From a virus: 33,650 bases of DNA. The notes under the pieces were generated by a model that saw only the letters and a program-made list of their open reading frames with translations, searched no databases and was not told the origin of the DNA. Where the stretch lies: positions 1 through 33,650 of the IMG/VR virus record IMGVR_UViG_3300013131_000131; one strand, written 5' to 3'. Both the position numbers and the translations under genes were made by a program. Shown one piece after another: positions 1 through 33,650 of this stretch; the stretch's first letter is position 1, and each line of letters starts with the position of its first letter.

Positions 1-1
1 G

Positions 2-937
2 TCGCCGGGTGCTCCGAGCATCGAGTTCAAGGGTGACCTGACCGACGAGTTCCGTTCCTACCTCGAAGGTGCAGGCGACTTCGCTGAGGCGGTCAACAAC
101 TTCGTGATCTTGCACCCGGGTGCGACGCCGTACACGGTGTTCCAGTCGGAGACCGAGTCAGGCGCGTCGATGCCAGCGAGCCGCAAGGCGTACAACTGGA
201 TGCGGGAGAACGAGCAGTTGTTGAAGGACAACCGGTTCGCTGGCCCGTGGCTGATCCCGAAGGACGAGGAAGGTACGTCGAGCGACTACTTCTCGAAGGC
301 GTTCGATTGGCAGTTGGCCCAGGGGCACCGCGAGTTGCGCCTCCCGAACGAGTACTACGACGAACTGATCTTCTCCGCAGATTCGCGTGCCTACTTCAAC
401 ACGCAAGACGACCATGAGACACGGATCGACGAGGCCGAGAAGGCCGGCGATTTCCAGACGGCCGGCGAGTTGAAGGCCCAGTGGAAGTTCTACCGTGACA
501 CGTACTTCACGCAGCATCCGTTGTTCAAGGAGATGCTGACCGACCCGGTCCGTCAGCAGCGCCGGACGAAGATCATCTCGGAGATGGACCGTCTGATCGG
601 TCCGGGCGGGCCGCTCTCGGACCGTCCCGAGTATGCGGGGCAGCGGGCCTTGTTGAACATCTGGGACTGGTACTTGACGGAGAAGTCGCGGTGGTCGATC
701 AGTTCGACCGCGTACGCCCGGGCGCAGGCCAAGCGCGTGAAGAACGAGGCGTACGTCCGGATGAACCGGTACACGACGGACGTGAACCCTGGGGTGCGTA
801 GCCTGTTCTTCCGGGTATTCCGACCGGAGTTCCAGTTGAACGACATCGAGCAGGCTGAGGCAGAACAGATGGTGACAGACTCGGGCTACCGACTCGTCGA
901 CGACGAGTTGATGGCTGAACTGGTTGGAGGTAACTGA
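2..937 (+). CDS. Large virion structural protein, C-terminal fragment (5' end outside window)
   Basis: The frame is open to the window edge, so the 311 visible residues are the C-terminal part of a longer protein. An internal GTG at 104 could be read as a start, but the 34 codons before it are normal coding sequence (S-P-G-A-P-S-I-E-F...), so the gene should be taken as truncated. The visible part is mostly helical and rich in charged and aromatic residues, with no signal peptide or membrane segment. I recognise no enzymatic motif. It resembles large internal or minor capsid proteins encoded near capsid genes of actinobacterial phages, but that is from memory and weak. It overlaps the next gene by 1 nt (TGATG), so the two are probably translated together. 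Other possibilities are a portal-associated or injected protein. Confidence 0.8.
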   Translation, partial: SPGAPSIEFKGDLTDEFRSYLEGAGDFAEAVNNFVILHPGATPYTVFQSETESGASMPASRKAYNWMRENEQLLKDNRFAGPWLIPKDEEGTSSDYFSKAFDWQLAQGHRELRLPNEYYDELIFSADSRAYFNTQDDHETRIDEAEKAGDFQTAGELKAQWKFYRDTYFTQHPLFKEMLTDPVRQQRRTKIISEMDRLIGPGGPLSDRPEYAGQRALLNIWDWYLTEKSRWSISSTAYARAQAKRVKNEAYVRMNRYTTDVNPGVRSLFFRVFRPEFQLNDIEQAEAEQMVTDSGYRLVDDELMAELVGGN

Positions 938-2790
938 TGCCGCCTGGGCGTTCGACCCCATGGAACACTGGTGCGGCTCCGGTCTCGAAGAAGCCGAAGC
1001 CGAAGCCGAAGCCGACGACAACGGACACTGCTGCGCGTGATGCGCAACTTCGTGCTGCGTTGGAACGCCGCCGGATGGAGGTGCTCCGTCGTTCTCGCGA
1101 GGCACGCCAGAAGGCGTTGGAGAAGGCGCGTGCTGACGCCGCAATGGCCCGTGACGAATACGATCAGTACCTCCGGAACGAATTCGTCACCAAGGGGTCT
1201 GATGGCAAGGGCGAAGGTGAGGAACTCTTCATCGAGCGCGTGAACAATTACGACGCTCGCGCGCAGGCCGCGGCCGAGGAGTACAACCGTTGGACGATGG
1301 ACAACAAGCAGGGCCTGGAGCGTCTCGACGCGTGGGAGGAGAGCCAGAAGAACGACAACCAGAACTTCAACAATCAGGTCTCGAAACTCCAGGGTGACGC
1401 GAAGTACCGCCAGGAACGGTACGCACGCGTGAACAGTGTCCGGCTCGCGAACGGTCAGGCGCCGATCGTGATCAGCCAGCAGCGCCTCGAAGACGGCAAC
1501 CTCTCCGACACGGAGGTCGTCGCGTTGATGAACCCGGCAGAGTTCACGGACGAGAACGTCGAGGCCCGCGCCGATATGGAGCGGGCTCGGACGCAGTTGG
1601 AAGACAAGCGTTGGGTCGAGAACCAGTGGACGGAACGACGGAAGCGGTTCGAGGAGAACAACGAGATCTGGGTCCCGGACGAGGACGGGAAGGGCGGGTC
1701 GTTCCAGCCTTTGATGACCGAGGAGGGCAACGGAACCGTCCTGATCAAGGACGATGGCTCTGTCTACGTCGGAGGCCAGCGGATCCTTGGTGATCGGGCC
1801 GCACAGATCGAGAACCAGTACGCCTGGTTCCGTGATGGTGACAACAAGAGTCGCGACCAGGTGCTCGCGAACATCATGGTCGGCGATGACCGGATCTTCG
1901 GAGATACGTCTGGCTGGAACATCTACGACGACAGCGTCTTGGATCAGATCCGTTTCGTTGACCCGGCGTACGCACTGGATGAAGACGCGGCCGGTCCACT
2001 TAGCCAGCACTACGCGGCCGATCTCGACGGCAACGCGTTCACGATCGACGACTACTTGTACGGCGATCGGATGCTCGTGCCGGACGAGGACTCGCTGCGT
2101 GTCGCGCTCAACAACCAGCAGGCCCAGCCGCTCACCCAGGCCGAGGTCTACTTCAAGATCAAGAGCCTCGCCCAGTCGGACCCGGTCCGGTTCAAGCAGT
2201 ACCAGAAGGCGTTGTACCTCGGGGGGTTCTTGTCGAAGCCGGCGAACGCCGGAGAGACCTGGAACCCTTCGGGGATCATGGACCAGGAGACAGATGTCGC
2301 GTTGCAAGAAGCGGTCGGGTATGGCTACAACGAAGCCTGGCGGAACGGTCAGACCTTCGACTCGTGGCTCTACACCCAGGTCGACGCTGGCACCCAGGAC
2401 CAGAGCGGCAGCGGCAGTGGCAGTGGCTCTGGTGCGGCGAACGCCTGGGCTGTCACCGACGAAGTGTCGCTGAACATGATCGTTGACACGGCAGGCCAGT
2501 CGTTGCTCGGCCGGAACTTGAAGCCAGACGAGCGCGCACAGATCGTCGAACGGATCCAGGCCATGGAGAACGCCGAGGGCCAGAAGACGAGTGGTGCGAT
2601 CCAGACGATCGACCCGACTGCGCAGGCCGAGAACATGATCCGTGAACTGCACCCGGATGCGGCGAAGGCCCACGATGTTGCGGGCACGTTCGACATGTTC
2701 GCCGACATCCTTGGCGCCGGTCTCGGTCTTGCTGGCGGCAGTTCAAGTTTCGGTTCGGCACCGACTGGTCCGAACACGTTGGGAGGCTGA
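937..2790 (+). CDS. Putative virion structural protein with coiled-coil N-terminus (617 aa)
   Basis: Function not recognised with certainty. The start ATG overlaps the previous TGA and has GGAGG at 926-930, 6 nt upstream. After a short basic leader with a Lys-Pro repeat (residues 18-26, from four AAGCCG units at 991-1014), residues about 32-180 are highly charged, Arg/Glu/Ala-rich and helical, as in a coiled coil. The middle is a mixed globular region. A Gly-Ser linker near residues 489-499 separates a C-terminal domain that ends in a Gly-rich tail. There is no signal peptide, membrane helix or catalytic motif. Its place between other virion-type genes and the scaffold/capsid pair suggests an internal or minor head protein. 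A scaffold-like or ejected protein is also possible. Confidence 0.8.
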   Translation: MPPGRSTPWNTGAAPVSKKPKPKPKPTTTDTAARDAQLRAALERRRMEVLRRSREARQKALEKARADAAMARDEYDQYLRNEFVTKGSDGKGEGEELFIERVNNYDARAQAAAEEYNRWTMDNKQGLERLDAWEESQKNDNQNFNNQVSKLQGDAKYRQERYARVNSVRLANGQAPIVISQQRLEDGNLSDTEVVALMNPAEFTDENVEARADMERARTQLEDKRWVENQWTERRKRFEENNEIWVPDEDGKGGSFQPLMTEEGNGTVLIKDDGSVYVGGQRILGDRAAQIENQYAWFRDGDNKSRDQVLANIMVGDDRIFGDTSGWNIYDDSVLDQIRFVDPAYALDEDAAGPLSQHYAADLDGNAFTIDDYLYGDRMLVPDEDSLRVALNNQQAQPLTQAEVYFKIKSLAQSDPVRFKQYQKALYLGGFLSKPANAGETWNPSGIMDQETDVALQEAVGYGYNEAWRNGQTFDSWLYTQVDAGTQDQSGSGSGSGSGAANAWAVTDEVSLNMIVDTAGQSLLGRNLKPDERAQIVERIQAMENAEGQKTSGAIQTIDPTAQAENMIRELHPDAAKAHDVAGTFDMFADILGAGLGLAGGSSSFGSAPTGPNTLGG

Positions 2791-2791
2791 C

Positions 2792-3718
2792 ATGGCAGAG
2801 CCGGCTAAGACCGAAGACCCGGAGAAGAAGGTCAACGAGCAGGCCGCGTCAACTGGGAACGAAGCGTGGGTGATCAAGGCCCAGGAGCAGTACGGGTATC
2901 TCGCCGCGTTCATCACGCACGCCGAACTCGGCCCGTTGCTTCGCAAGGCAGCGCAGAACGGCTGGACGAAGGAGACACTCCAGGGCGAGTTGTACAAGAC
3001 TCGTTGGTGGAAGACGACTTCGGAGACGGTTCGCAACTGGCAGTTGCTCCAGTCGTCCGACCCTGCCGAGGCGAACAACCGGATCGAGCAGAAGTACCAG
3101 TCGCTGTCGTTGATCGCGAAGCAGCAAGGCTTCCCGATGTCGGACAGTGCGCTCCGTCAGGTCGCGACCGCTTCGGTCGTCTACGGGATGGACGACTCAC
3201 TCACTCAGCAGGCGCTGTTCTCGCATGTCCGCTGGAAGCCGAAGATGAAGGTCGGCGGTGTCGGCGGTCAGCAGATCGCGAACGTGAAGGCGCGCGCTTT
3301 GGCGTATGGCGTGAACATGAGTGACGAGATGGCGTTCAACTACTCGCGTCGCATCGCGTCCGGGCAGATGACGGTTGATGGTGTCGAAGTCGATCTGCGG
3401 AACCGGGCGAAGTCGAAGTACGGGTATCTCGCGAACGACATCGACCGCGGGTTCACGACCCAGGAGATCCTCGACCCGTACGTCCAGCAGTACGCCGAAC
3501 TGTTGGAGGTCGCCCCGACTTCGGTGTCGTTCACCGATCCGGGGTTCCGTCAGTTCTTCGAGGGACGTGGCGAGAAGGGCACGCAGTTGATGTCGTTGAG
3601 CGAATCGGCTGAGCAGATCCGCAAGACGAAGGAATGGCGGAGTACGCGTCAGGCGAACCAGCAGGCGGCGACGTTCGCCGAGACCCTGTTGACGACGTTC
3701 GGTGAGGTGAAGGTCTGA
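2792..3718 (+). CDS. Putative internal virion protein (308 aa)
   Basis: Start chosen at ATG 2792 because GGGAGG (2781-2786) lies 5 nt upstream and the previous gene stops at 2790; the same frame is open further upstream but overlaps that gene. The protein is soluble and helical. Residues about 45-90 contain L-G-P-L-L-R-K-A followed by a W-W-K-T-T segment. From memory, this pattern recurs in very large virion proteins of actinobacterial phages. A second helical block (about 225-280) contains Y-G-Y-L-A-N-D-I-D-R-G-F. I see no enzyme motif. It is coupled to the next gene by TGATG. Likely role: a head-interior or neck-associated structural protein; this rests on context and a recalled motif. Confidence 0.78.
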   Translation: MAEPAKTEDPEKKVNEQAASTGNEAWVIKAQEQYGYLAAFITHAELGPLLRKAAQNGWTKETLQGELYKTRWWKTTSETVRNWQLLQSSDPAEANNRIEQKYQSLSLIAKQQGFPMSDSALRQVATASVVYGMDDSLTQQALFSHVRWKPKMKVGGVGGQQIANVKARALAYGVNMSDEMAFNYSRRIASGQMTVDGVEVDLRNRAKSKYGYLANDIDRGFTTQEILDPYVQQYAELLEVAPTSVSFTDPGFRQFFEGRGEKGTQLMSLSESAEQIRKTKEWRSTRQANQQAATFAETLLTTFGEVKV

Positions 3719-4539
3719 TGGCGAACCAGGATGCGGCCATGGCCGTGAAGGCCGTGCTCAGCAAGTACGGGCTGGAGTCGTTGACGGACTGGGCGATGGA
3801 CGCTCTTGTCCGCGGCCTGTCCGAAGCGGAGATCGTGCAGGAGATGCGGAACCGTCCCGAGTTCGATCAGCGGTTCCCGGGGATCAAGCAACGCGAGGCT
3901 GCTGGGCTGAACGCGATCTCGCCCGGCGAGTATGTGGAGTACGAGACCCGGGCGTCGCAGTTGGCGAAGTTCTACGGGATGCCGTTCACTCTCGGTCGTC
4001 AGCAGGTTGCGGCGTTGATCTCAGGCGACGTGTCCCCAACGGAGTTGGAAGCCCGGATCCAGGGCGGCTACAACCGGGTGGCGTCCGCACCGGCAGAGGT
4101 CCGGGACTGGTTCAGCCAGATGTACGGGACGAAGGGCGACCAGGCGCTCGCGGCGTTCTTCGTCGACCCGGACTTGTCGGCCCCGGAACTGGAACGGTTC
4201 GCTGCGGCAGCAGAGGCCGGCGGGTACGCGACGATGGCCGGGTTCGGGCTCGGGCGCGACCAGGCGGAGACGGTCGCTCGTCTTGGGCTGTCGCGCGATC
4301 AGGTTGCGCAGGGCATGGCGGGTGTCGGCCAGCAGGCCGGGCTGTTCGATGAGACGATCACGGAGTCGGTGGACCTCCAGGCTGGCCGCGAAGGCGTCGA
4401 TGCCCAGTTCGGCTCGTCGGACCAGGCCCGTCAGGCGGTGCAACGCCGCGCTGATCAGCGTGCGGCGGCGTTCGCTGGGTCGAACGAGACGACCGCGACA
4501 CAGCAGGGCGTGATCGGGCTCGGCACGTCGAAGGGCTAG
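3718..4539 (+). CDS. Putative internal virion protein (273 aa)
   Basis: ATG overlaps the preceding TGA; GAGGTGA at 3704-3710 is 7 nt upstream. The protein is soluble and helical. Residues 46-89 carry R-P-E-F-D-Q-R-F-P-G-I followed by an A-G-L-x-x-x-S-P-G-E-Y segment. From memory, this pattern occurs in long phage structural proteins whose relatives may also contain the segments seen in the gene just upstream. The C-terminal 70 residues are Ala/Gln/Arg-rich and end in a low-complexity tail. This is the only gene in the arm that ends in TAG, and it closes the first coupled block before a 210-nt gap. Function is inferred from context only. Confidence 0.78.
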   Translation: MANQDAAMAVKAVLSKYGLESLTDWAMDALVRGLSEAEIVQEMRNRPEFDQRFPGIKQREAAGLNAISPGEYVEYETRASQLAKFYGMPFTLGRQQVAALISGDVSPTELEARIQGGYNRVASAPAEVRDWFSQMYGTKGDQALAAFFVDPDLSAPELERFAAAAEAGGYATMAGFGLGRDQAETVARLGLSRDQVAQGMAGVGQQAGLFDETITESVDLQAGREGVDAQFGSSDQARQAVQRRADQRAAAFAGSNETTATQQGVIGLGTSKG

Positions 4540-4749
4540 ACAAGCCCGGCATCGCGTGATACAACTTGTCACGACGTGCGCTGTCCGTGAGCCCCGCAGG
4601 GCCGGATGGCCGTCCTTCCGCCAGGGAAGTCGCATCCCCTGTGCGCGTACTCGCGGTATGGCGCGATCCCCAGCGAAGGATCGCCTCGCCCCCGCCTCGC
4701 CCTCCGTGCTCGTACTCCGCGCGCACGCGTCTGGAATTGGAGAACCCCA
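4540..4749 (+). promoter_or_regulatory. 210-nt non-coding leader with stem-loops before the scaffold gene
   Basis: No convincing gene is present: an in-frame ATG at 4606 would add an Arg/Pro-rich extension unlike the acidic scaffold. A 5-bp stem (4533-4537/4543-4547) spans the upstream stop codon. An imperfect stem-loop has outer arms GGATG/CATCC (4604-4608/4633-4637) and inner arms CTTCC/GGAAG (4615-4619/4625-4629). A perfect 7-bp stem GCGATCC/GGATCGC (4663-4669/4678-4684) has an 8-nt loop. No U-tract follows any stem and I cannot assign a clear -35/-10 pair. The region may hold a terminator, a processing site or a promoter for capsid genes. Confidence 0.4.
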
Positions 4750-5289
4750 ATGGCTGATGACAACGACAACTTGGATGACGACGACACGTCTGGTCCGGCG
4801 ACGGTCACGTTGACCCGGGCGCAGATCCGTTCGATGGAGCGTGATGCGAAGTCGGCCCGCGAAGCAATCGCGGAGGCGAACTCGCTGCGGCTCCAACTGG
4901 CGGTGACGCAGGCCGGTCTCGACATCACCGACCCGAAGATCGCGTTCTTCGCGAAGCACTACGACGGCGAGACGACCGTGGAGGCCGTGAAGGCAGCCGC
5001 GGCCACGCTCGGTTTCGTGACGGCAGCGGAGAGTGACGACGAAGGAGATGATGGCGTGGACCCGAACCTGACCGACGCCCGAGACCGTCTCGCTTCTGGT
5101 GCCCTGCCCGACAACGGCAAGGCGCCGGAGAAGCCGGTCCGAGAGACCGCCATCACCCAGGCCCGCGAGTTCGTGAAGAACGGCGGGACCCAGGAAGACG
5201 GCATGGCGTTCGCGTTCAACCAGATCGTCGGTGCCGCAGCCAAGGGCGACAAGTCGGTGATCATCCCGAGCATCGGCCAGTCAGCCTGA
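4750..5289 (+). CDS. Phage capsid scaffolding protein (179 aa)
   Basis: Scaffolding proteins guide assembly of capsid subunits into the procapsid and then leave. Start ATG 4750 is chosen because GGAG at 4739-4742 lies 7 nt upstream; longer in-frame starts give an atypical basic N-terminus. The protein opens with a very acidic stretch (D/N-rich, residues 2-13). A charged helical region follows (about 21-50), then a segment containing F-F-A-K-H-Y-D-G-E-T-T-V-E-A-V-K-A-A-A (67-85) that resembles actinophage scaffold proteins. Another acidic patch lies near 94-104. Size, charge pattern and position two genes before the major capsid gene all fit. It overlaps the next gene by 1 nt. A capsid-associated protein without scaffold function is the main alternative. 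Confidence 0.72.
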   Translation: MADDNDNLDDDDTSGPATVTLTRAQIRSMERDAKSAREAIAEANSLRLQLAVTQAGLDITDPKIAFFAKHYDGETTVEAVKAAAATLGFVTAAESDDEGDDGVDPNLTDARDRLASGALPDNGKAPEKPVRETAITQAREFVKNGGTQEDGMAFAFNQIVGAAAKGDKSVIIPSIGQSA

Positions 5290-5630
5290 TGGGGTGCGCC
5301 CACAACCCCGATTACGAGTGCTTCACATGCGAGACGGCACGTCACGACATGGAGCACCCGTCTGAGGTGGATGGGTGCCGTACCTGCAAGTACCGGACCA
5401 TCAGCATCTCGAACGCAGCGACACCTACGAAGACGTTGCGGTTGGGAACGCAGAAGGATCCGTCGAACAACTGGGAACGTGGGATCGCTACCGACCATCG
5501 GGGCGTCCCGTACCTGAACGCATCGGGTTCTCCGATCGGCGTGAAGGAGTTCCAGAACAACCGTTCGACATACGAGCAGGCGATCCGAGACAACCGCAAC
5601 GCCCAGCCCGCGACTACTAAGGTGAACTGA
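5289..5630 (+). CDS. Small zinc-ribbon-like protein between scaffold and capsid genes (113 aa)
   Basis: The start overlaps the scaffold TGA (TGATG) with no clear Shine-Dalgarno, so translation is probably coupled. The N-terminal third holds five cysteines. C11-x2-C14 and C30-x2-C33 have the spacing of a four-cysteine zinc ribbon; C3, H5, H19 and H23 lie nearby. The rest is a short polar domain with no membrane segment. I do not recognise the family. Its position suggests a role in head assembly, a minor capsid component, or a regulator of late genes. Zinc binding is inferred from cysteine spacing. Confidence 0.72.
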   Translation: MGCAHNPDYECFTCETARHDMEHPSEVDGCRTCKYRTISISNAATPTKTLRLGTQKDPSNNWERGIATDHRGVPYLNASGSPIGVKEFQNNRSTYEQAIRDNRNAQPATTKVN

Positions 5631-5631
5631 C

Positions 5632-6771
5632 ATGGCACAGGCCACGCTCCCGTCCCTCTACCAGACCTACGACCTCACGGTCGGCGTCATCGTCGACATC
5701 GAGGACATGATCCACCTGCTCGACCCGTTCGAGGCGCCCCTCCAGGGCATGAACGGTGCTGATGGCCGTTCTGCGCTATCGACCGGCACCTGCTTCGAGA
5801 AGAAGGTCGAGTGGCTCGACGAGGAACTCCTCCTCCCCAAGAGCACGCTCGCCGCGAACGTGACCGCCGGCACGACCACGATCGGCGTGCAGACCGGCCA
5901 CGGCCTGCGTTTCTCGACCGGCGACGTGGTCCTGATCGGCTCGGAGAAGGTCAAGGTTCAGGCGATCTCGTCGGATACCCTGACCATCGACCGCGGCTAC
6001 GCAGGCACCACGGCCGCGGCCCAGGCGACCGACGCCGTCGCTCTGATTCTCGGTCAGGCCCTCCAGGAAGGCTCGAACCCCGAGAACCCGCGGGCGAAGG
6101 ACCGCACGAACCGGGACAACAACACCCAGATCTTCGGCCCCACGGCCGTCCGGGTGTCGGCGACCGAGAACGTGGTCCGCAAGTACGGCCTCGGCGGCAT
6201 GTCGGAGTTCGACAAGCAGGTCGCGAACCGTGCGAAGGAGCAGTTGATCCAGATTGAGCAGGCCATCCTGTACGGCACCAAGTACGACGACGAGTCGAAT
6301 GGCCGCACGATGGGTGGCTTCACCCAGTACATCACGACCAACGTGGACTCGACCACGACCGTGATCACCGAGGCGACTCTGCTCGACGACATGCAGGCCA
6401 CCTGGGATGTCGGTGGTCGAGTCGACCGTCTCATCGTCGGTGCGACCCAGAAGCGCAAGGTGTCGGGTCTCGCGACCGGTGCCGGGACCAACCTGACGAT
6501 CCACACGACCCAGGGTGAGGGCACCCGCGGCATCGTGATCGACACGCTGGTCTCCGACTTCGGCAACGTCTCGGTTCTGCTGAACCGGTGGTGCCGTGCG
6601 TCGGACCTGTTCGGCATCGACCGCGACCAGGCCGAACTGCTCACGCTCCGTCCGATGCAGTTCGAGATGCTCGCCAAGACGGGCGACTCGATCCACGGCC
6701 AGATCGTGCAGGAGAAGACGATGCGCTTCCGCCGGGAGCGCCACGCCTTCCGGTACAGCGCCCTGACCTGA
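5632..6771 (+). CDS. Major capsid protein, HK97 fold, SU10/DUF5309-like (379 aa)
   Basis: The main shell protein of the head. AAGGTGA at 5619-5625 is 6 nt before the ATG. Features matching the SU10-type major head protein family are a Leu/Tyr-rich N-terminal arm, an inserted beta-rich module at about 75-140 (V-G-D/E-K-V-x-V ... R-G-Y-A-G-T-T-A-A-A), an N-N-T-Q-I-F segment at 163-168, a long helix around 188-215, and a C-terminal region rich in R/H/F that ends shortly after Q-E-K-T-M-R-F-R-R-E-R. Length is normal for the family. Scaffold and zinc-ribbon genes lie directly upstream and a strong hairpin directly downstream. Codon choice (mainly CTC/CTG, ACC, GTC, AAG) is more uniform than in neighbours, as expected for the most highly expressed late gene. 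Confidence 0.88.
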   Translation: MAQATLPSLYQTYDLTVGVIVDIEDMIHLLDPFEAPLQGMNGADGRSALSTGTCFEKKVEWLDEELLLPKSTLAANVTAGTTTIGVQTGHGLRFSTGDVVLIGSEKVKVQAISSDTLTIDRGYAGTTAAAQATDAVALILGQALQEGSNPENPRAKDRTNRDNNTQIFGPTAVRVSATENVVRKYGLGGMSEFDKQVANRAKEQLIQIEQAILYGTKYDDESNGRTMGGFTQYITTNVDSTTTVITEATLLDDMQATWDVGGRVDRLIVGATQKRKVSGLATGAGTNLTIHTTQGEGTRGIVIDTLVSDFGNVSVLLNRWCRASDLFGIDRDQAELLTLRPMQFEMLAKTGDSIHGQIVQEKTMRFRRERHAFRYSALT

Positions 6772-6784
6772 TCGTGATAGCAGC

Positions 6785-6812
6785 GGTGGCCGGCCCTTCG
6801 GGGCCGGTCGCC
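6785..6812 (+). terminator. Strong hairpin with TTCG tetraloop after the capsid gene
   Basis: The stem is 6785-6796 paired with 6801-6812: twelve pairs, including two G-T wobbles, closed by C-TTCG-G, an exceptionally stable tetraloop. It begins 13 nt after the capsid stop. No U-tract follows, as is common in high-GC actinobacteria and their phages. It may terminate capsid transcription or protect the 3' end of the capsid mRNA. Confidence 0.75.
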
Positions 6813-6813
6813 G

Positions 6814-6826
6814 TATGCTCACCGTC
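6814..6826 (+). promoter_or_regulatory. Candidate leaderless promoter (TATGCT -10-like box)
   Basis: TATGCT at 6814-6819 fits the TANNNT -10 pattern and sits 7 nt before ATG 6827, the spacing expected if transcription starts at the start codon. No Shine-Dalgarno precedes the gene, consistent with a leaderless mRNA as is common in actinobacteria. The -35 region would fall inside the upstream hairpin and matches no consensus, so this is suggestive only. Confidence 0.4.
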
Positions 6827-7567
6827 ATGAACCGAGCGCAACGCCGCCGTCAGGCACGCCCCCCGCAGCGCAAGAACTTCGTGATCGGCTTCGTCCACCC
6901 GGACATGATCGACGCCCAGTTCGGTCGAAGCCTCGCCACGTTGGTCCTGAACGATTCGGGGCGCGTAGCCCAGATCATCGCAGCCCAGTCCGGGCCGCGG
7001 ATCGCTACCGCACGCAACGACATCGTGCGGGCGTTCCTCGCGATCGAGAGCAAGCCTGAGTGGCTGTTCATGGTCGACACGGACATGGTGTTCCCGCCGG
7101 ACATCCTGGCCCAGTTCGAGCAGGTGCTGGATCCGGCCGTAGCCCCGATCGTCGGTGGGCTCGCGTTCATCTACGAGAAGTTCGGCCAGTCGATCCGGAC
7201 GAACATGATGATCTGGGAGGAACTCGAAGCAGGCCCGATGCTTCGTGGCGTCTCCGGCTATCCGGATGATGCGCTCTGCCGGGTCGCAGCGACCGGCGCG
7301 GCTTGCTTGGTGATGCACCGCGACGCGTTGCTGACGATGGAAGAGAAGTACGGGGCCTTGGTGCATCCCTGGTTCCAGGAGACAACGACCGACACTCACG
7401 AGTGGGGCGAGGACATCACGTTCTGTGTGCGGGCAGGCCAGTGCGGCCTGCCGATTCATGTTCACACTGGTATCGAGTTCGGTCACATGAAGAAGGGCGT
7501 GATCTCTTCGGAGGATTTCGCTCCGTTTCGTCAGCCGCTCGTGAAGGAGCAGACCGATGCCGCTTGA
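6827..7567 (+). CDS. Phage GT-A-type glycosyltransferase (246 aa)
   Basis: Predicted to transfer a sugar from a nucleotide-sugar donor. A basic N-terminus (M-N-R-A-Q-R-R-R) precedes a Rossmann-like strand (F-V-I-G-F-V, 18-23). The segment G-P-R-I-A-T-A-R-N-D leads to W-L-F-M-V-D-T-D, whose D84-T-D86 is the metal and donor-binding DxD motif. G-A-A-C-L-V-M-H-R-D (157-166), G-E-D-I-T-F-C (194-200) and F-G-H (218-220) follow in the order usual for phage GT2-like enzymes. There is no membrane anchor. ATG 6827 is preferred over ATG 6815 because it gives a typical N-terminus and leaves room for the -10-like box. The gene overlaps the fibre gene by 11 nt. The acceptor is unknown; virion proteins or a host surface glycan are the candidates. 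Confidence 0.8.
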   Translation: MNRAQRRRQARPPQRKNFVIGFVHPDMIDAQFGRSLATLVLNDSGRVAQIIAAQSGPRIATARNDIVRAFLAIESKPEWLFMVDTDMVFPPDILAQFEQVLDPAVAPIVGGLAFIYEKFGQSIRTNMMIWEELEAGPMLRGVSGYPDDALCRVAATGAACLVMHRDALLTMEEKYGALVHPWFQETTTDTHEWGEDITFCVRAGQCGLPIHVHTGIEFGHMKKGVISSEDFAPFRQPLVKEQTDAA

Positions 7568-10123: not shown

Positions 10124-10135
10124 TCGGAGCACACC

Positions 10136-23515: not shown

Positions 23516-23527
23516 GGTGTGCTCCGA

Positions 23528-24784
23528 TCAACTCAAGTACCGGGTCGTGTTCGTGATGATGCGGTAGTCGCCACGGCCCGAAGACCCCTGGAAACTGCTG
23601 ATCCCGGTCGGGGCCGAACCGCCACCAGTTTCGGTACCGCCGAGCAAGACCGGGTTCGTGACCCCAGCCGTGCCGCCGCTGTTGTCGATCGAAGCCCGGA
23701 CGTGGTTCGGACCAAGACCGGTCGAGCCACCACCGGCCCCACCGAACACGAGACCGTTCTGGTAGATACCGGAACCGCGGCGGTGGATCTTCAAGTCAAG
23801 GTCGTAGTAGGTCGCGGCAGAGTCCACGAACACGGCGGTCACGCCAGTGTTGTACGCGGTCTCGATCCGGGCCTTGATGTCGGCGTGGATCACGTCGTTG
23901 AGTTTCAGTCCGTTGCGGCAGGACTGGAGTTCGATGTCGCCACCAGTGAACCGGGCCGAGTCGACAATCATGCCCCAGGCTCCGGTCGTGTTGAAGTCCG
24001 AAGTCTTGTAGTGCGTGAACCGGACGTTGCCGCCGCCGATGAACGCTCCGACCGCGTTCGAAGAGTTCGCGACGATGCAGTGCGACTGGACGATCGACAC
24101 GTCGGACGACTGGTCGATGTAGTAGCCGTACGCGTCGATACCGGACCAACGGATGTTGTGACCGCTCAGACCGCGGCCATTGACTCCAGCCCCGCCGATC
24201 GCTGCGAGGCCGTACTCCAGGCCACGGCCACGCAGGTTGTAGATGAAGTCGTAGGTGTCGCCGCCGGTGCCTGCGGTCGGCACCCCGTAGGTCGCGTCGG
24301 AGGCACGCTCGGTGCTCGACTCAACGTCACCGTTCGTGCGGTCGATGTAGACCGCCGAGACGCCACCGCCGTTCGTGCCGTTGAAGTACATGTTGCCGAT
24401 GCTGAACATGCAGGAGTTCTGGCCTGCGGCGGTATCCGCAACCATGATCATCGCGGGCTGTGCGCCTTCGGCACCAGTCATGTCCCAACTGCCGCCACCG
24501 GTGTCGGACGTGAGGACCGTGCGACAGCCCGAACCAGTGATCGACTGACCACGGCTTTTGATCAGGATCGGGCCACGCAACCCGAACTCGCCAGCGCAGA
24601 GATGGACGCCGGCATAGATCGGACCGGGCGACGACGCGATCAGTGACGCGTCGATCGCTGCGTTGATCGTCGTGTGATCGTCGGTCCCATCACAGACGAA
24701 CGGATCAGCGCGGAACTTCAACTCGTCAGGCGTGTCGGACGCCGCGACAGCAAAGACGCCGGAAGCAAGAGGACGACGGCTCAT
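23528..24784 (-). CDS. Mirror copy: beta-helix tailspike
   Basis: Identical to the 418-aa product of 8867-10123, with the C-D-G-T-D-D-H entry motif near residue 31. Confidence 0.77.
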   Translation of the reverse strand: MSRRPLASGVFAVAASDTPDELKFRADPFVCDGTDDHTTINAAIDASLIASSPGPIYAGVHLCAGEFGLRGPILIKSRGQSITGSGCRTVLTSDTGGGSWDMTGAEGAQPAMIMVADTAAGQNSCMFSIGNMYFNGTNGGGVSAVYIDRTNGDVESSTERASDATYGVPTAGTGGDTYDFIYNLRGRGLEYGLAAIGGAGVNGRGLSGHNIRWSGIDAYGYYIDQSSDVSIVQSHCIVANSSNAVGAFIGGGNVRFTHYKTSDFNTTGAWGMIVDSARFTGGDIELQSCRNGLKLNDVIHADIKARIETAYNTGVTAVFVDSAATYYDLDLKIHRRGSGIYQNGLVFGGAGGGSTGLGPNHVRASIDNSGGTAGVTNPVLLGGTETGGGSAPTGISSFQGSSGRGDYRIITNTTRYLS

Positions 24785-26094
24785 CAGATCACCAACCAGT
24801 TCGTACCAACGGAAACAAGTTCGACGATCTCGTTCTGGACATAGATCACAAGATCGGACGACGATCCCATGATCAGGTCCGAACCTGCCCGGCGGATCGC
24901 CACCGACCCGCCCGAGCCAGACTTGTAGACCATGAGCCGCTTGCCTGCCCAGGTCGTCGCGGACGGCAGGGTCGCGATCACCGTCGAGGTGCTCGAACAG
25001 GTCGTGATGTCCTTCGAGATCGTGAACGACGTGCCAGCCTGCGTTTCGTACGTGTACGTGATCGACGATCCGCCTGACGCTGCGCCCAACGCTTGCAGCG
25101 CCGCTTCCACATCGGTCCCTGCGAAGTAGCCGCCTGTGTCGAGAATCGAGATGGCTGAGGCGTCGTGTGCATCTGAAGTGTCCCCGGTGTGAGTAGCGAG
25201 GAGGGTCGCCGCAGTTCCAGCCTGATCCACGTCCAGGTTCGTCCGAGCGTCCGCCGCAGTCGATGCGCCAGTACCACCGTCCGCCACCGCAATGTCGGTG
25301 ATGCCAGTGACGCTTCCGCCCGTGATTGTGACGGCCGACGCCGCTTGAGTAGCGATCGAGCCCAAGCCCAAGTTCGTGCGCGCGTCAGCGGCTGTCGACG
25401 CACCCGTCCCGCCATCGGCGACGGCAACATCCGCACCTCCTGGCGTATACCCGGCGTTGCTGCCAGCATACGCCCAGCCAACATCGTCAGTGCCGACCGC
25501 GCTGACCGTCTTGTTCGTCACCCAGATCCCTGCCTGGGTTCCGTCTTCAACGTAGATCGCGTTGCCCTTGGTGAGTTCGGCCGCGGCATCGAAGTCCGAG
25601 GCGCGCGCCCAAGCGCCATCCGCGGTGACCCACACGCCGTTCTCCGTCGCGTCGGTCTGCGCCGTGAGCACGATCCGGGAGTCGTTTGTCAACACGCCGT
25701 TGATGGTCTGCTCGCCAGACTTCGTGACGTTCGCTGTTGCCGCAGTCGAAGCGTTCGGCGAATGGAACGTCGTCACGGTCGCCGCCAACGCAGCCTGCCA
25801 CTGCTGATACGTGACGGGCTGCAAGCCTGTCGTCGCATTCGCCGCGAGCGTCAACGTCCCTTCGAGCGTCCCGCCAGTGACCGGTAGATACGCCTCCAAC
25901 TCGGTCGCAACATGTGCTTCGGACGCTGCGGGCGATCCGTCAGCCAGCGTCAACACCCCGGTCACCGTCCCACCGGCCGGCTTCAAGAAGTTCGATGGGA
26001 CCTCGCCCAACCATTCGTTCAGGTGATCATGGATCTGTTCGTGCGCGGCGATGTGGCCCGCTTCGCCCTCTTCGATCTCTTCATCAAGCGGCAT
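24784..26094 (-). CDS. Mirror copy: tail fibre-like protein
   Basis: Identical to the 436-aa product of 7557-8867. The two-copy shaft repeat lies at 25225-25428 in this arm. Confidence 0.82.
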   Translation of the reverse strand: MPLDEEIEEGEAGHIAAHEQIHDHLNEWLGEVPSNFLKPAGGTVTGVLTLADGSPAASEAHVATELEAYLPVTGGTLEGTLTLAANATTGLQPVTYQQWQAALAATVTTFHSPNASTAATANVTKSGEQTINGVLTNDSRIVLTAQTDATENGVWVTADGAWARASDFDAAAELTKGNAIYVEDGTQAGIWVTNKTVSAVGTDDVGWAYAGSNAGYTPGGADVAVADGGTGASTAADARTNLGLGSIATQAASAVTITGGSVTGITDIAVADGGTGASTAADARTNLDVDQAGTAATLLATHTGDTSDAHDASAISILDTGGYFAGTDVEAALQALGAASGGSSITYTYETQAGTSFTISKDITTCSSTSTVIATLPSATTWAGKRLMVYKSGSGGSVAIRRAGSDLIMGSSSDLVIYVQNEIVELVSVGTNWLVI

Positions 26095-26824
26095 CGGTCT
26101 GCTCCTTCACGAGCGGCTGACGAAACGGAGCGAAATCCTCCGAAGAGATCACGCCCTTCTTCATGTGACCGAACTCGATACCAGTGTGAACATGAATCGG
26201 CAGGCCGCACTGGCCTGCCCGCACACAGAACGTGATGTCCTCGCCCCACTCGTGAGTGTCGGTCGTTGTCTCCTGGAACCAGGGATGCACCAAGGCCCCG
26301 TACTTCTCTTCCATCGTCAGCAACGCGTCGCGGTGCATCACCAAGCAAGCCGCGCCGGTCGCTGCGACCCGGCAGAGCGCATCATCCGGATAGCCGGAGA
26401 CGCCACGAAGCATCGGGCCTGCTTCGAGTTCCTCCCAGATCATCATGTTCGTCCGGATCGACTGGCCGAACTTCTCGTAGATGAACGCGAGCCCACCGAC
26501 GATCGGGGCTACGGCCGGATCCAGCACCTGCTCGAACTGGGCCAGGATGTCCGGCGGGAACACCATGTCCGTGTCGACCATGAACAGCCACTCAGGCTTG
26601 CTCTCGATCGCGAGGAACGCCCGCACGATGTCGTTGCGTGCGGTAGCGATCCGCGGCCCGGACTGGGCTGCGATGATCTGGGCTACGCGCCCCGAATCGT
26701 TCAGGACCAACGTGGCGAGGCTTCGACCGAACTGGGCGTCGATCATGTCCGGGTGGACGAAGCCGATCACGAAGTTCTTGCGCTGCGGGGGGCGTGCCTG
26801 ACGGCGGCGTTGCGCTCGGTTCAT
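26084..26824 (-). CDS. Mirror copy: glycosyltransferase
   Basis: Identical to the 246-aa product of 6827-7567, with DxD at residues 84-86. Its start lies next to the mirrored -10-like box. Confidence 0.77.
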   Translation of the reverse strand: MNRAQRRRQARPPQRKNFVIGFVHPDMIDAQFGRSLATLVLNDSGRVAQIIAAQSGPRIATARNDIVRAFLAIESKPEWLFMVDTDMVFPPDILAQFEQVLDPAVAPIVGGLAFIYEKFGQSIRTNMMIWEELEAGPMLRGVSGYPDDALCRVAATGAACLVMHRDALLTMEEKYGALVHPWFQETTTDTHEWGEDITFCVRAGQCGLPIHVHTGIEFGHMKKGVISSEDFAPFRQPLVKEQTDAA

Positions 26825-26837
26825 GACGGTGAGCATA
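26825..26837 (-). promoter_or_regulatory. Mirror copy: candidate leaderless promoter
   Basis: Reverse complement of 6814-6826. TATGCT reads on the - strand at 26837-26832, 7 nt before the start codon. Confidence 0.38.
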
Positions 26838-26838
26838 C

Positions 26839-26866
26839 GGCGACCGGCCCCGAAGGGCCGGCCACC
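26839..26866 (-). terminator. Mirror copy: TTCG-loop hairpin after the capsid gene
   Basis: Reverse complement of 6785-6812. On the - strand the loop reads TTCG again, just downstream of the capsid stop. Confidence 0.72.
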
Positions 26867-26879
26867 GCTGCTATCACGA

Positions 26880-28019
26880 TCAGGTCAGGGCGCTGTACCG
26901 GAAGGCGTGGCGCTCCCGGCGGAAGCGCATCGTCTTCTCCTGCACGATCTGGCCGTGGATCGAGTCGCCCGTCTTGGCGAGCATCTCGAACTGCATCGGA
27001 CGGAGCGTGAGCAGTTCGGCCTGGTCGCGGTCGATGCCGAACAGGTCCGACGCACGGCACCACCGGTTCAGCAGAACCGAGACGTTGCCGAAGTCGGAGA
27101 CCAGCGTGTCGATCACGATGCCGCGGGTGCCCTCACCCTGGGTCGTGTGGATCGTCAGGTTGGTCCCGGCACCGGTCGCGAGACCCGACACCTTGCGCTT
27201 CTGGGTCGCACCGACGATGAGACGGTCGACTCGACCACCGACATCCCAGGTGGCCTGCATGTCGTCGAGCAGAGTCGCCTCGGTGATCACGGTCGTGGTC
27301 GAGTCCACGTTGGTCGTGATGTACTGGGTGAAGCCACCCATCGTGCGGCCATTCGACTCGTCGTCGTACTTGGTGCCGTACAGGATGGCCTGCTCAATCT
27401 GGATCAACTGCTCCTTCGCACGGTTCGCGACCTGCTTGTCGAACTCCGACATGCCGCCGAGGCCGTACTTGCGGACCACGTTCTCGGTCGCCGACACCCG
27501 GACGGCCGTGGGGCCGAAGATCTGGGTGTTGTTGTCCCGGTTCGTGCGGTCCTTCGCCCGCGGGTTCTCGGGGTTCGAGCCTTCCTGGAGGGCCTGACCG
27601 AGAATCAGAGCGACGGCGTCGGTCGCCTGGGCCGCGGCCGTGGTGCCTGCGTAGCCGCGGTCGATGGTCAGGGTATCCGACGAGATCGCCTGAACCTTGA
27701 CCTTCTCCGAGCCGATCAGGACCACGTCGCCGGTCGAGAAACGCAGGCCGTGGCCGGTCTGCACGCCGATCGTGGTCGTGCCGGCGGTCACGTTCGCGGC
27801 GAGCGTGCTCTTGGGGAGGAGGAGTTCCTCGTCGAGCCACTCGACCTTCTTCTCGAAGCAGGTGCCGGTCGATAGCGCAGAACGGCCATCAGCACCGTTC
27901 ATGCCCTGGAGGGGCGCCTCGAACGGGTCGAGCAGGTGGATCATGTCCTCGATGTCGACGATGACGCCGACCGTGAGGTCGTAGGTCTGGTAGAGGGACG
28001 GGAGCGTGGCCTGTGCCAT
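26880..28019 (-). CDS. Mirror copy: major capsid protein
   Basis: Identical to the 379-aa product of 5632-6771 (SU10/DUF5309-like). A functional phage has no evident need for two identical convergent capsid genes, which supports the artefact reading. Confidence 0.84.
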   Translation of the reverse strand: MAQATLPSLYQTYDLTVGVIVDIEDMIHLLDPFEAPLQGMNGADGRSALSTGTCFEKKVEWLDEELLLPKSTLAANVTAGTTTIGVQTGHGLRFSTGDVVLIGSEKVKVQAISSDTLTIDRGYAGTTAAAQATDAVALILGQALQEGSNPENPRAKDRTNRDNNTQIFGPTAVRVSATENVVRKYGLGGMSEFDKQVANRAKEQLIQIEQAILYGTKYDDESNGRTMGGFTQYITTNVDSTTTVITEATLLDDMQATWDVGGRVDRLIVGATQKRKVSGLATGAGTNLTIHTTQGEGTRGIVIDTLVSDFGNVSVLLNRWCRASDLFGIDRDQAELLTLRPMQFEMLAKTGDSIHGQIVQEKTMRFRRERHAFRYSALT

Positions 28020-28020
28020 G

Positions 28021-28362
28021 TCAGTTCACCTTAGTAGTCGCGGGCTGGGCGTTGCGGTTGTCTCGGATCGCCTGCTCGTATGTCGAACGGTTGTTCTGGA
28101 ACTCCTTCACGCCGATCGGAGAACCCGATGCGTTCAGGTACGGGACGCCCCGATGGTCGGTAGCGATCCCACGTTCCCAGTTGTTCGACGGATCCTTCTG
28201 CGTTCCCAACCGCAACGTCTTCGTAGGTGTCGCTGCGTTCGAGATGCTGATGGTCCGGTACTTGCAGGTACGGCACCCATCCACCTCAGACGGGTGCTCC
28301 ATGTCGTGACGTGCCGTCTCGCATGTGAAGCACTCGTAATCGGGGTTGTGGGCGCACCCCAT
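28021..28362 (-). CDS. Mirror copy: zinc-ribbon-like small protein
   Basis: Identical to the 113-aa product of 5289-5630, with C11-x2-C14 and C30-x2-C33. Confidence 0.7.
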   Translation of the reverse strand: MGCAHNPDYECFTCETARHDMEHPSEVDGCRTCKYRTISISNAATPTKTLRLGTQKDPSNNWERGIATDHRGVPYLNASGSPIGVKEFQNNRSTYEQAIRDNRNAQPATTKVN

Positions 28363-28901
28363 CAGGCTGACTGGCCGATGCTCGGGATGATCACCGACTT
28401 GTCGCCCTTGGCTGCGGCACCGACGATCTGGTTGAACGCGAACGCCATGCCGTCTTCCTGGGTCCCGCCGTTCTTCACGAACTCGCGGGCCTGGGTGATG
28501 GCGGTCTCTCGGACCGGCTTCTCCGGCGCCTTGCCGTTGTCGGGCAGGGCACCAGAAGCGAGACGGTCTCGGGCGTCGGTCAGGTTCGGGTCCACGCCAT
28601 CATCTCCTTCGTCGTCACTCTCCGCTGCCGTCACGAAACCGAGCGTGGCCGCGGCTGCCTTCACGGCCTCCACGGTCGTCTCGCCGTCGTAGTGCTTCGC
28701 GAAGAACGCGATCTTCGGGTCGGTGATGTCGAGACCGGCCTGCGTCACCGCCAGTTGGAGCCGCAGCGAGTTCGCCTCCGCGATTGCTTCGCGGGCCGAC
28801 TTCGCATCACGCTCCATCGAACGGATCTGCGCCCGGGTCAACGTGACCGTCGCCGGACCAGACGTGTCGTCGTCATCCAAGTTGTCGTTGTCATCAGCCA
28901 T
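28362..28901 (-). CDS. Mirror copy: scaffolding protein
   Basis: Identical to the 179-aa product of 4750-5289, with the same ribosome-binding site. Confidence 0.7.
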   Translation of the reverse strand: MADDNDNLDDDDTSGPATVTLTRAQIRSMERDAKSAREAIAEANSLRLQLAVTQAGLDITDPKIAFFAKHYDGETTVEAVKAAAATLGFVTAAESDDEGDDGVDPNLTDARDRLASGALPDNGKAPEKPVRETAITQAREFVKNGGTQEDGMAFAFNQIVGAAAKGDKSVIIPSIGQSA

Positions 28902-29111
28902 TGGGGTTCTCCAATTCCAGACGCGTGCGCGCGGAGTACGAGCACGGAGGGCGAGGCGGGGGCGAGGCGATCCTTCGCTGGGGATCGCGCCATACCGCGA
29001 GTACGCGCACAGGGGATGCGACTTCCCTGGCGGAAGGACGGCCATCCGGCCCTGCGGGGCTCACGGACAGCGCACGTCGTGACAAGTTGTATCACGCGAT
29101 GCCGGGCTTGT
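28902..29111 (-). promoter_or_regulatory. Mirror copy: non-coding leader with stem-loops
   Basis: Reverse complement of 4540-4749. The 7-bp stem lies at 28967-28973/28982-28988. I see no gene in it. Confidence 0.38.
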
Positions 29112-29933
29112 CTAGCCCTTCGACGTGCCGAGCCCGATCACGCCCTGCTGTGTCGCGGTCGTCTCGTTCGACCCAGCGAACGCCGCCGCACGCTGATCAG
29201 CGCGGCGTTGCACCGCCTGACGGGCCTGGTCCGACGAGCCGAACTGGGCATCGACGCCTTCGCGGCCAGCCTGGAGGTCCACCGACTCCGTGATCGTCTC
29301 ATCGAACAGCCCGGCCTGCTGGCCGACACCCGCCATGCCCTGCGCAACCTGATCGCGCGACAGCCCAAGACGAGCGACCGTCTCCGCCTGGTCGCGCCCG
29401 AGCCCGAACCCGGCCATCGTCGCGTACCCGCCGGCCTCTGCTGCCGCAGCGAACCGTTCCAGTTCCGGGGCCGACAAGTCCGGGTCGACGAAGAACGCCG
29501 CGAGCGCCTGGTCGCCCTTCGTCCCGTACATCTGGCTGAACCAGTCCCGGACCTCTGCCGGTGCGGACGCCACCCGGTTGTAGCCGCCCTGGATCCGGGC
29601 TTCCAACTCCGTTGGGGACACGTCGCCTGAGATCAACGCCGCAACCTGCTGACGACCGAGAGTGAACGGCATCCCGTAGAACTTCGCCAACTGCGACGCC
29701 CGGGTCTCGTACTCCACATACTCGCCGGGCGAGATCGCGTTCAGCCCAGCAGCCTCGCGTTGCTTGATCCCCGGGAACCGCTGATCGAACTCGGGACGGT
29801 TCCGCATCTCCTGCACGATCTCCGCTTCGGACAGGCCGCGGACAAGAGCGTCCATCGCCCAGTCCGTCAACGACTCCAGCCCGTACTTGCTGAGCACGGC
29901 CTTCACGGCCATGGCCGCATCCTGGTTCGCCAT
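29112..29933 (-). CDS. Mirror copy: internal virion protein (273 aa)
   Basis: Identical to the product of 3718-4539, ending in the same TAG stop. Confidence 0.75.
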   Translation of the reverse strand: MANQDAAMAVKAVLSKYGLESLTDWAMDALVRGLSEAEIVQEMRNRPEFDQRFPGIKQREAAGLNAISPGEYVEYETRASQLAKFYGMPFTLGRQQVAALISGDVSPTELEARIQGGYNRVASAPAEVRDWFSQMYGTKGDQALAAFFVDPDLSAPELERFAAAAEAGGYATMAGFGLGRDQAETVARLGLSRDQVAQGMAGVGQQAGLFDETITESVDLQAGREGVDAQFGSSDQARQAVQRRADQRAAAFAGSNETTATQQGVIGLGTSKG

Positions 29934-30859
29934 CAGACCTTCACCTCACCGAACGTCGTCAACAGGGTCTCGGCGAACGTCGCCGCCTGCTGGTTCGCCT
30001 GACGCGTACTCCGCCATTCCTTCGTCTTGCGGATCTGCTCAGCCGATTCGCTCAACGACATCAACTGCGTGCCCTTCTCGCCACGTCCCTCGAAGAACTG
30101 ACGGAACCCCGGATCGGTGAACGACACCGAAGTCGGGGCGACCTCCAACAGTTCGGCGTACTGCTGGACGTACGGGTCGAGGATCTCCTGGGTCGTGAAC
30201 CCGCGGTCGATGTCGTTCGCGAGATACCCGTACTTCGACTTCGCCCGGTTCCGCAGATCGACTTCGACACCATCAACCGTCATCTGCCCGGACGCGATGC
30301 GACGCGAGTAGTTGAACGCCATCTCGTCACTCATGTTCACGCCATACGCCAAAGCGCGCGCCTTCACGTTCGCGATCTGCTGACCGCCGACACCGCCGAC
30401 CTTCATCTTCGGCTTCCAGCGGACATGCGAGAACAGCGCCTGCTGAGTGAGTGAGTCGTCCATCCCGTAGACGACCGAAGCGGTCGCGACCTGACGGAGC
30501 GCACTGTCCGACATCGGGAAGCCTTGCTGCTTCGCGATCAACGACAGCGACTGGTACTTCTGCTCGATCCGGTTGTTCGCCTCGGCAGGGTCGGACGACT
30601 GGAGCAACTGCCAGTTGCGAACCGTCTCCGAAGTCGTCTTCCACCAACGAGTCTTGTACAACTCGCCCTGGAGTGTCTCCTTCGTCCAGCCGTTCTGCGC
30701 TGCCTTGCGAAGCAACGGGCCGAGTTCGGCGTGCGTGATGAACGCGGCGAGATACCCGTACTGCTCCTGGGCCTTGATCACCCACGCTTCGTTCCCAGTT
30801 GACGCGGCCTGCTCGTTGACCTTCTTCTCCGGGTCTTCGGTCTTAGCCGGCTCTGCCAT
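29933..30859 (-). CDS. Mirror copy: internal virion protein (308 aa)
   Basis: Identical to the product of 2792-3718, with the same GGGAGG ribosome-binding site. Confidence 0.75.
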   Translation of the reverse strand: MAEPAKTEDPEKKVNEQAASTGNEAWVIKAQEQYGYLAAFITHAELGPLLRKAAQNGWTKETLQGELYKTRWWKTTSETVRNWQLLQSSDPAEANNRIEQKYQSLSLIAKQQGFPMSDSALRQVATASVVYGMDDSLTQQALFSHVRWKPKMKVGGVGGQQIANVKARALAYGVNMSDEMAFNYSRRIASGQMTVDGVEVDLRNRAKSKYGYLANDIDRGFTTQEILDPYVQQYAELLEVAPTSVSFTDPGFRQFFEGRGEKGTQLMSLSESAEQIRKTKEWRSTRQANQQAATFAETLLTTFGEVKV

Positions 30860-30860
30860 G

Positions 30861-32714
30861 TCAGCCTCCCAACGTGTTCGGACCAGTCGGTGCCGAACCG
30901 AAACTTGAACTGCCGCCAGCAAGACCGAGACCGGCGCCAAGGATGTCGGCGAACATGTCGAACGTGCCCGCAACATCGTGGGCCTTCGCCGCATCCGGGT
31001 GCAGTTCACGGATCATGTTCTCGGCCTGCGCAGTCGGGTCGATCGTCTGGATCGCACCACTCGTCTTCTGGCCCTCGGCGTTCTCCATGGCCTGGATCCG
31101 TTCGACGATCTGTGCGCGCTCGTCTGGCTTCAAGTTCCGGCCGAGCAACGACTGGCCTGCCGTGTCAACGATCATGTTCAGCGACACTTCGTCGGTGACA
31201 GCCCAGGCGTTCGCCGCACCAGAGCCACTGCCACTGCCGCTGCCGCTCTGGTCCTGGGTGCCAGCGTCGACCTGGGTGTAGAGCCACGAGTCGAAGGTCT
31301 GACCGTTCCGCCAGGCTTCGTTGTAGCCATACCCGACCGCTTCTTGCAACGCGACATCTGTCTCCTGGTCCATGATCCCCGAAGGGTTCCAGGTCTCTCC
31401 GGCGTTCGCCGGCTTCGACAAGAACCCCCCGAGGTACAACGCCTTCTGGTACTGCTTGAACCGGACCGGGTCCGACTGGGCGAGGCTCTTGATCTTGAAG
31501 TAGACCTCGGCCTGGGTGAGCGGCTGGGCCTGCTGGTTGTTGAGCGCGACACGCAGCGAGTCCTCGTCCGGCACGAGCATCCGATCGCCGTACAAGTAGT
31601 CGTCGATCGTGAACGCGTTGCCGTCGAGATCGGCCGCGTAGTGCTGGCTAAGTGGACCGGCCGCGTCTTCATCCAGTGCGTACGCCGGGTCAACGAAACG
31701 GATCTGATCCAAGACGCTGTCGTCGTAGATGTTCCAGCCAGACGTATCTCCGAAGATCCGGTCATCGCCGACCATGATGTTCGCGAGCACCTGGTCGCGA
31801 CTCTTGTTGTCACCATCACGGAACCAGGCGTACTGGTTCTCGATCTGTGCGGCCCGATCACCAAGGATCCGCTGGCCTCCGACGTAGACAGAGCCATCGT
31901 CCTTGATCAGGACGGTTCCGTTGCCCTCCTCGGTCATCAAAGGCTGGAACGACCCGCCCTTCCCGTCCTCGTCCGGGACCCAGATCTCGTTGTTCTCCTC
32001 GAACCGCTTCCGTCGTTCCGTCCACTGGTTCTCGACCCAACGCTTGTCTTCCAACTGCGTCCGAGCCCGCTCCATATCGGCGCGGGCCTCGACGTTCTCG
32101 TCCGTGAACTCTGCCGGGTTCATCAACGCGACGACCTCCGTGTCGGAGAGGTTGCCGTCTTCGAGGCGCTGCTGGCTGATCACGATCGGCGCCTGACCGT
32201 TCGCGAGCCGGACACTGTTCACGCGTGCGTACCGTTCCTGGCGGTACTTCGCGTCACCCTGGAGTTTCGAGACCTGATTGTTGAAGTTCTGGTTGTCGTT
32301 CTTCTGGCTCTCCTCCCACGCGTCGAGACGCTCCAGGCCCTGCTTGTTGTCCATCGTCCAACGGTTGTACTCCTCGGCCGCGGCCTGCGCGCGAGCGTCG
32401 TAATTGTTCACGCGCTCGATGAAGAGTTCCTCACCTTCGCCCTTGCCATCAGACCCCTTGGTGACGAATTCGTTCCGGAGGTACTGATCGTATTCGTCAC
32501 GGGCCATTGCGGCGTCAGCACGCGCCTTCTCCAACGCCTTCTGGCGTGCCTCGCGAGAACGACGGAGCACCTCCATCCGGCGGCGTTCCAACGCAGCACG
32601 AAGTTGCGCATCACGCGCAGCAGTGTCCGTTGTCGTCGGCTTCGGCTTCGGCTTCGGCTTCTTCGAGACCGGAGCCGCACCAGTGTTCCATGGGGTCGAA
32701 CGCCCAGGCGGCAT
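30861..32714 (-). CDS. Mirror copy: coiled-coil virion protein (617 aa)
   Basis: Identical to the product of 937-2790, including the Lys-Pro repeat and the Gly-Ser linker. Confidence 0.77.
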   Translation of the reverse strand: MPPGRSTPWNTGAAPVSKKPKPKPKPTTTDTAARDAQLRAALERRRMEVLRRSREARQKALEKARADAAMARDEYDQYLRNEFVTKGSDGKGEGEELFIERVNNYDARAQAAAEEYNRWTMDNKQGLERLDAWEESQKNDNQNFNNQVSKLQGDAKYRQERYARVNSVRLANGQAPIVISQQRLEDGNLSDTEVVALMNPAEFTDENVEARADMERARTQLEDKRWVENQWTERRKRFEENNEIWVPDEDGKGGSFQPLMTEEGNGTVLIKDDGSVYVGGQRILGDRAAQIENQYAWFRDGDNKSRDQVLANIMVGDDRIFGDTSGWNIYDDSVLDQIRFVDPAYALDEDAAGPLSQHYAADLDGNAFTIDDYLYGDRMLVPDEDSLRVALNNQQAQPLTQAEVYFKIKSLAQSDPVRFKQYQKALYLGGFLSKPANAGETWNPSGIMDQETDVALQEAVGYGYNEAWRNGQTFDSWLYTQVDAGTQDQSGSGSGSGSGAANAWAVTDEVSLNMIVDTAGQSLLGRNLKPDERAQIVERIQAMENAEGQKTSGAIQTIDPTAQAENMIRELHPDAAKAHDVAGTFDMFADILGAGLGLAGGSSSFGSAPTGPNTLGG

Positions 32715-33649
32715 CAGTTACCTCCAACCAGTTCAGCCATCAACTCGTCGTCGACGAGTCGGTAGCCCGAGTCTGTCACCATCTGTTCTGCCTCAGCCTG
32801 CTCGATGTCGTTCAACTGGAACTCCGGTCGGAATACCCGGAAGAACAGGCTACGCACCCCAGGGTTCACGTCCGTCGTGTACCGGTTCATCCGGACGTAC
32901 GCCTCGTTCTTCACGCGCTTGGCCTGCGCCCGGGCGTACGCGGTCGAACTGATCGACCACCGCGACTTCTCCGTCAAGTACCAGTCCCAGATGTTCAACA
33001 AGGCCCGCTGCCCCGCATACTCGGGACGGTCCGAGAGCGGCCCGCCCGGACCGATCAGACGGTCCATCTCCGAGATGATCTTCGTCCGGCGCTGCTGACG
33101 GACCGGGTCGGTCAGCATCTCCTTGAACAACGGATGCTGCGTGAAGTACGTGTCACGGTAGAACTTCCACTGGGCCTTCAACTCGCCGGCCGTCTGGAAA
33201 TCGCCGGCCTTCTCGGCCTCGTCGATCCGTGTCTCATGGTCGTCTTGCGTGTTGAAGTAGGCACGCGAATCTGCGGAGAAGATCAGTTCGTCGTAGTACT
33301 CGTTCGGGAGGCGCAACTCGCGGTGCCCCTGGGCCAACTGCCAATCGAACGCCTTCGAGAAGTAGTCGCTCGACGTACCTTCCTCGTCCTTCGGGATCAG
33401 CCACGGGCCAGCGAACCGGTTGTCCTTCAACAACTGCTCGTTCTCCCGCATCCAGTTGTACGCCTTGCGGCTCGCTGGCATCGACGCGCCTGACTCGGTC
33501 TCCGACTGGAACACCGTGTACGGCGTCGCACCCGGGTGCAAGATCACGAAGTTGTTGACCGCCTCAGCGAAGTCGCCTGCACCTTCGAGGTAGGAACGGA
33601 ACTCGTCGGTCAGGTCACCCTTGAACTCGATGCTCGGAGCACCCGGCGA
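32714..33649 (-). CDS. Mirror copy: large virion protein, C-terminal fragment
   Basis: Identical to the product of 2-937, and open at the window end at exactly the mirrored base. Both arms therefore stop at the same codon of the same gene. Confidence 0.77.
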   Translation of the reverse strand, partial: SPGAPSIEFKGDLTDEFRSYLEGAGDFAEAVNNFVILHPGATPYTVFQSETESGASMPASRKAYNWMRENEQLLKDNRFAGPWLIPKDEEGTSSDYFSKAFDWQLAQGHRELRLPNEYYDELIFSADSRAYFNTQDDHETRIDEAEKAGDFQTAGELKAQWKFYRDTYFTQHPLFKEMLTDPVRQQRRTKIISEMDRLIGPGGPLSDRPEYAGQRALLNIWDWYLTEKSRWSISSTAYARAQAKRVKNEAYVRMNRYTTDVNPGVRSLFFRVFRPEFQLNDIEQAEAEQMVTDSGYRLVDDELMAELVGGN

Positions 33650-33650
33650 C

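Follow-up and report, generated by a model that had tools for sequence, protein, structure and literature searches.

Sequences joined to their own complement, or present more than once in a record, have been met at several stages of sequencing and assembly. Exactly mirrored contigs in Illumina single-cell assemblies of the Joint Genome Institute (JGI) were judged very likely to be assembly artefacts and were removed (PMC12755884). Palindromic products arise in whole-genome amplification (PMC6218980), and inversions account for 85% of the chimeras of multiple displacement amplification (MDA), mostly with an intervening deletion (PMC1855051). Fold-back artefacts are documented in both Nanopore and PacBio reads (PMC12870357), and contigs of IMG/VR in which a genome is repeated, flagged by CheckV from their k-mer frequency, were judged probable assembly artefacts (PMC8116208). 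Inverted duplications are also reported to form in cells, through template switching at replication forks (PMC10766183). Here, we consider a palindrome that occupies the whole of the virus record IMGVR_UViG_3300013131_000131, a stretch of 33,650 bp that was analysed in full and is referred to below as the window.

Set against its own reverse complement base by base, the window shows 0 mismatches over 33,650 positions, bearing out the perfect 16,825-bp inverted repeat without spacer that a preliminary description had claimed. The left arm (1-16825, + strand) and the right arm (16826-33650, - strand) are exactly equal in length and meet at an axis between positions 16825 and 16826. The next-longest zero-spacer palindrome within the arm reaches no more than 7 bp to either side of its centre, and a palindrome with arms of 16,825 bp is therefore far beyond chance. 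Because it fills the entire public record (G000:C1:1-33650), there is no unique flank on either side, and the two record ends are one and the same cut point. We put at roughly 95% the probability that this palindrome is real in the file but not in biology. The comparisons of sequence described below argue that the record is a technical artefact in which a 16,825-bp arm, the single real piece of sequence, has been joined to its own reverse complement, with the right arm taken as the artefactual copy. Three observations support this: genes are interrupted both at the axis and at the outer ends, relatives hold a single copy of the region, and the arms show zero divergence. They also lend weight to the preference expressed in the preliminary description for a fold-back product or an assembler that continued from one strand onto the other.

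The axis falls inside a gene. An open reading frame (ORF) starts at 16751, overlapping by 4 bp the end of the gene for a 98-aa protein (16458-16754, + strand), and the axis lies 75 bases into it, between codons 25 and 26; beyond this point the frame reads its own antisense, to a stop at 16981. The 25 codons before the axis (16751-16825, + strand; VSIEQYPPSATGGGGPGVSDHGDLT) appear to be the start of a tail-fibre-like gene. When used as a query, the 98-aa protein brought up one syntenic relative, contig L022 (42% identity), in which the homologue is followed at once by an ORF that extends over at least 517 codons and has not closed where the contig ends. This ORF begins MPFQQYPS as against VSIEQYPPS in the window, and as the similarity is weak, the argument from L022 for an interrupted gene leans mainly on position. 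Immediately ahead of the axis the frame reads SDHGDLT, which is similar to the opening part of a fibre motif in locus L113 (TDHGSLKGLSDDDHTQYL); the motif in the window is likely to have been truncated at the axis. Given the gene of at least 517 codons at the matching place in L022 and this partial motif, the axis most likely interrupts a longer fibre gene. It is on no biological boundary, at an arbitrary place within a gene. A tblastn search with the 25-aa fibre start gave no match. Locus L062, which also has a 98-aa-like gene, was considered as a further relative and set aside, as its downstream genes are unrelated.

The outer ends tell a similar story. The first base of the record lies within an open frame (2-937, + strand), the 3' remainder of a gene truncated by the record end. 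Its product matches the C-terminal portion of a 2018-aa ORF in the relative G001, from near residue 1739 onwards. The outer ends, falling within a gene of about 2,000 aa, are thus arbitrary too. They are a single cut point that appears once per strand, the pattern expected of an assembler that walks an arm, turns and returns. ORFs of about 2,000 aa without a PHROGs match stand upstream of the capsid genes in both G001 (L012:265-6321) and G003 (L018:515-6379).

The SU10-capsid records IMGVR_UViG_3300003319_000462, 3300037100_000084 and 3300036800_000124 share the gene order of the window, and their major capsid proteins (MCPs), the nearest found in IMG/VR, are 49-52% identical to that of the window. 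Unlike the window, these records are 44-46 kb long, contain the region once and have no palindrome. The preliminary description had proposed looking for related phages that carry the region once, and such phages exist: the recognisable arm genes are present as a single copy, in the same order, in all three long relatives, G001 (44,253 bp), G002 (46,238 bp) and G003 (45,857 bp), none of which is palindromic. An inverted repeat longer than 150 bp was found in 0 of 144 related loci; among the 146 loci compared, only L001 and L002, both derived from the window, have one. The terminases (phrog_38) of G001 and G003 were detected with PHROGs towards the opposite end of the map, outside the span matched by the arm; the Pfam profile PF03237 had missed the terminases of G001-G003.

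These relatives bear on the possibility that the mirror is a real inverted duplication, or a head-to-head replication intermediate, of the late region in a phage population. The form of the contig, taken alone, is compatible with such an event, and template switching at replication forks is reported to create inverted duplications in cells (PMC10766183). With zero divergence over 16.8 kb, however, the duplication would need to be recent enough for the arms not to differ, and it would have to break the fibre gene, both arm ends cutting genes. The region is, moreover, single-copy in 3 of 3 long relatives, and a long inverted repeat is absent from all relatives examined. Long spacer-free palindromes are also unstable in cells, and we regard this origin as extremely improbable, by a small measure the least probable of those considered here.

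Scarcely more credible is a hairpin telomere, for which a linear genome would be covalently closed at 16825 and sequencing would have read around the end. Reading through the closed hairpin of an N15-type telomere gives a zero-spacer mirror, which is the product observed, and the axis does lie towards the downstream part of the late gene block. Telomeres of the N15 type would, however, be expected outside coding sequence, and here a fibre-like ORF crosses the axis, after only 25 codons, where the gene of L022 has at least 517. A near-complete genome would be expected between the ends, but the arm is 16.8 kb as against 44-46 kb in the relatives, somewhat more than one-third of such a genome, and the window proteins scanned against PHROGs and Pfam gave no match to a terminase or portal. 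Protelomerase (PF16684) was not found in the window or in G001-G003, although the window is a fragment and the gene could lie elsewhere. Finally, G001 and G003 have identical direct repeats at their ends (25 and 127 bp, respectively), which suggests complete maps, circularly assembled or terminally repeated, rather than hairpin ends. The head-to-head intermediate and the hairpin telomere that the preliminary description offered as biological alternatives are thus the less supported, given the axis in a fibre-like gene, the direct end repeats of two relatives and the lack of a detected protelomerase. It seems to us most improbable that the late region is truly present in a phage population as a spacer-free head-to-head duplication, or that the genome has a hairpin end inside a fibre gene.

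How a technical artefact of this kind would come about can be outlined, the laboratory or software step behind the join being the part that we infer. The source would be one 16,825-bp late-region fragment from a tailed phage of about 45 kb with an SU10-type capsid, joined at its downstream end to its complement. Support for the true sequence would end 75 bp into the tail-fibre-like gene, and the turn onto the complement may have been a fold-back chimera, whether introduced by amplification, by end-repair or by the folding back of a long read, or else, within the assembly graph, a self-conjugate step. The assembler would then retrace the same sequence back to the same dead end, a walk that leaves two arms identical in sequence and in length with nothing unique beside them. 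As for the exact trigger, the contig fits either a chimera, present in a molecule or in a read, or an effect of the assembler by itself. A hairpin formed by the strand that leads up to the axis was considered and rejected as a trigger, its stability being no better than that of shuffled sequence (z 1.2); there is thus no strong local trigger on that side. Within the overall probability of an artefact, we think it unlikely that a single fold-back read, for example from a missed hairpin adapter or a Nanopore fold-back, was reported as the contig. Such reads are documented (PMC12870357), but no PacBio, Illumina or Oxford Nanopore (ONT) adapter sequence was found at the axis, and zero mismatches between the arms would be unusual for one raw read.

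The precedents resemble the window to differing degrees. The JGI single-cell contigs (PMC12755884) are, like the window, mirrored and span several genes, and they share the JGI/IMG assembly route; they come from cyanobacterial single-cell genomes, whereas the window is a phage record. The CheckV contigs (PMC8116208) likewise hold one sequence more than once per record, but there the same genome is present several times, whereas in the window a partial fragment is inverted. Inverted chimeras from MDA (PMC1855051, PMC6218980) share with the window a sequence joined to its own complement.

Several points weigh against an artefact. The MDA chimeras mostly have an intervening deletion (PMC1855051), which usually leaves a spacer at the axis, and the window has none. 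The join is known here from the assembled contig alone. An inverted repeat or hairpin end that was real would likewise make a graph-based assembler print the arm and its complement, so that a mirrored contig by itself is insufficient against biology. A near-identical single-copy version of the phage was also not found in searches that may not have covered near-identical records, the closest MCP relatives being about 52% identical. The phage collection gave no blastn match to the first 8 kb, and a 29-base pattern near the axis matched no other record in viral_contigs, so the sequence past the axis was not recovered.

The mirror is very probably not a real biological feature, and its relevance is one of quality control only. 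The record counts each gene twice and doubles the length, so that 16.8 kb of sequence is entered as 33.7 kb, and it could pass wrongly for a phage with giant inverted terminal repeats. Asking whether a contig equals its own reverse complement is a simple screen that would flag such records in virus collections.

The arm itself, judged by its gene content, is a fragment of the late (structural) region of an SU10-capsid tailed phage (Caudoviricetes), and the phage fragment is an ordinary uncultivated member of that lineage. All genes named here are on the + strand of the left arm. Downstream of the cut gene lie two genes for phage proteins of unassigned function, at 2642-3718 (phrog_6654, E 1.9e-46) and 3718-4539 (phrog_8424, E 3e-45), and the gene for an SU10-type MCP at 5632-6771 (Pfam PF17236, E 6.5e-61; phrog_1328). 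Virion structural or tail-fibre-like proteins are encoded at 7557-8867 (phrog_2824, phrog_11518) and 14054-15304 (phrog_23837, phrog_38058). Between them stand two conserved late genes, at 11251-12207 (phrog_7578, E 3.1e-52) and 12204-14054 (phrog_11667, function unassigned, E 6.2e-44), the latter with relatives found. A possible peptidase-type lysin at 15301-15915 is a weak assignment (PF06904, E 0.0097, under the Pfam cut-off). For 11251-12207, the only relative found among bacterial genome contigs is L021:1573-2409, on contig VGPE01000042.1 of a Chloroflexi metagenome-assembled genome (42% identity); as viral contigs are often mis-binned, this points only weakly to the host group. Immediately downstream of the capsid gene comes a gene for a glycosyltransferase-like protein (6815-7567; phrog_34859, E 4.7e-22). 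A homologue was not detected in G001; in G002 and G003, one occupies the same place.
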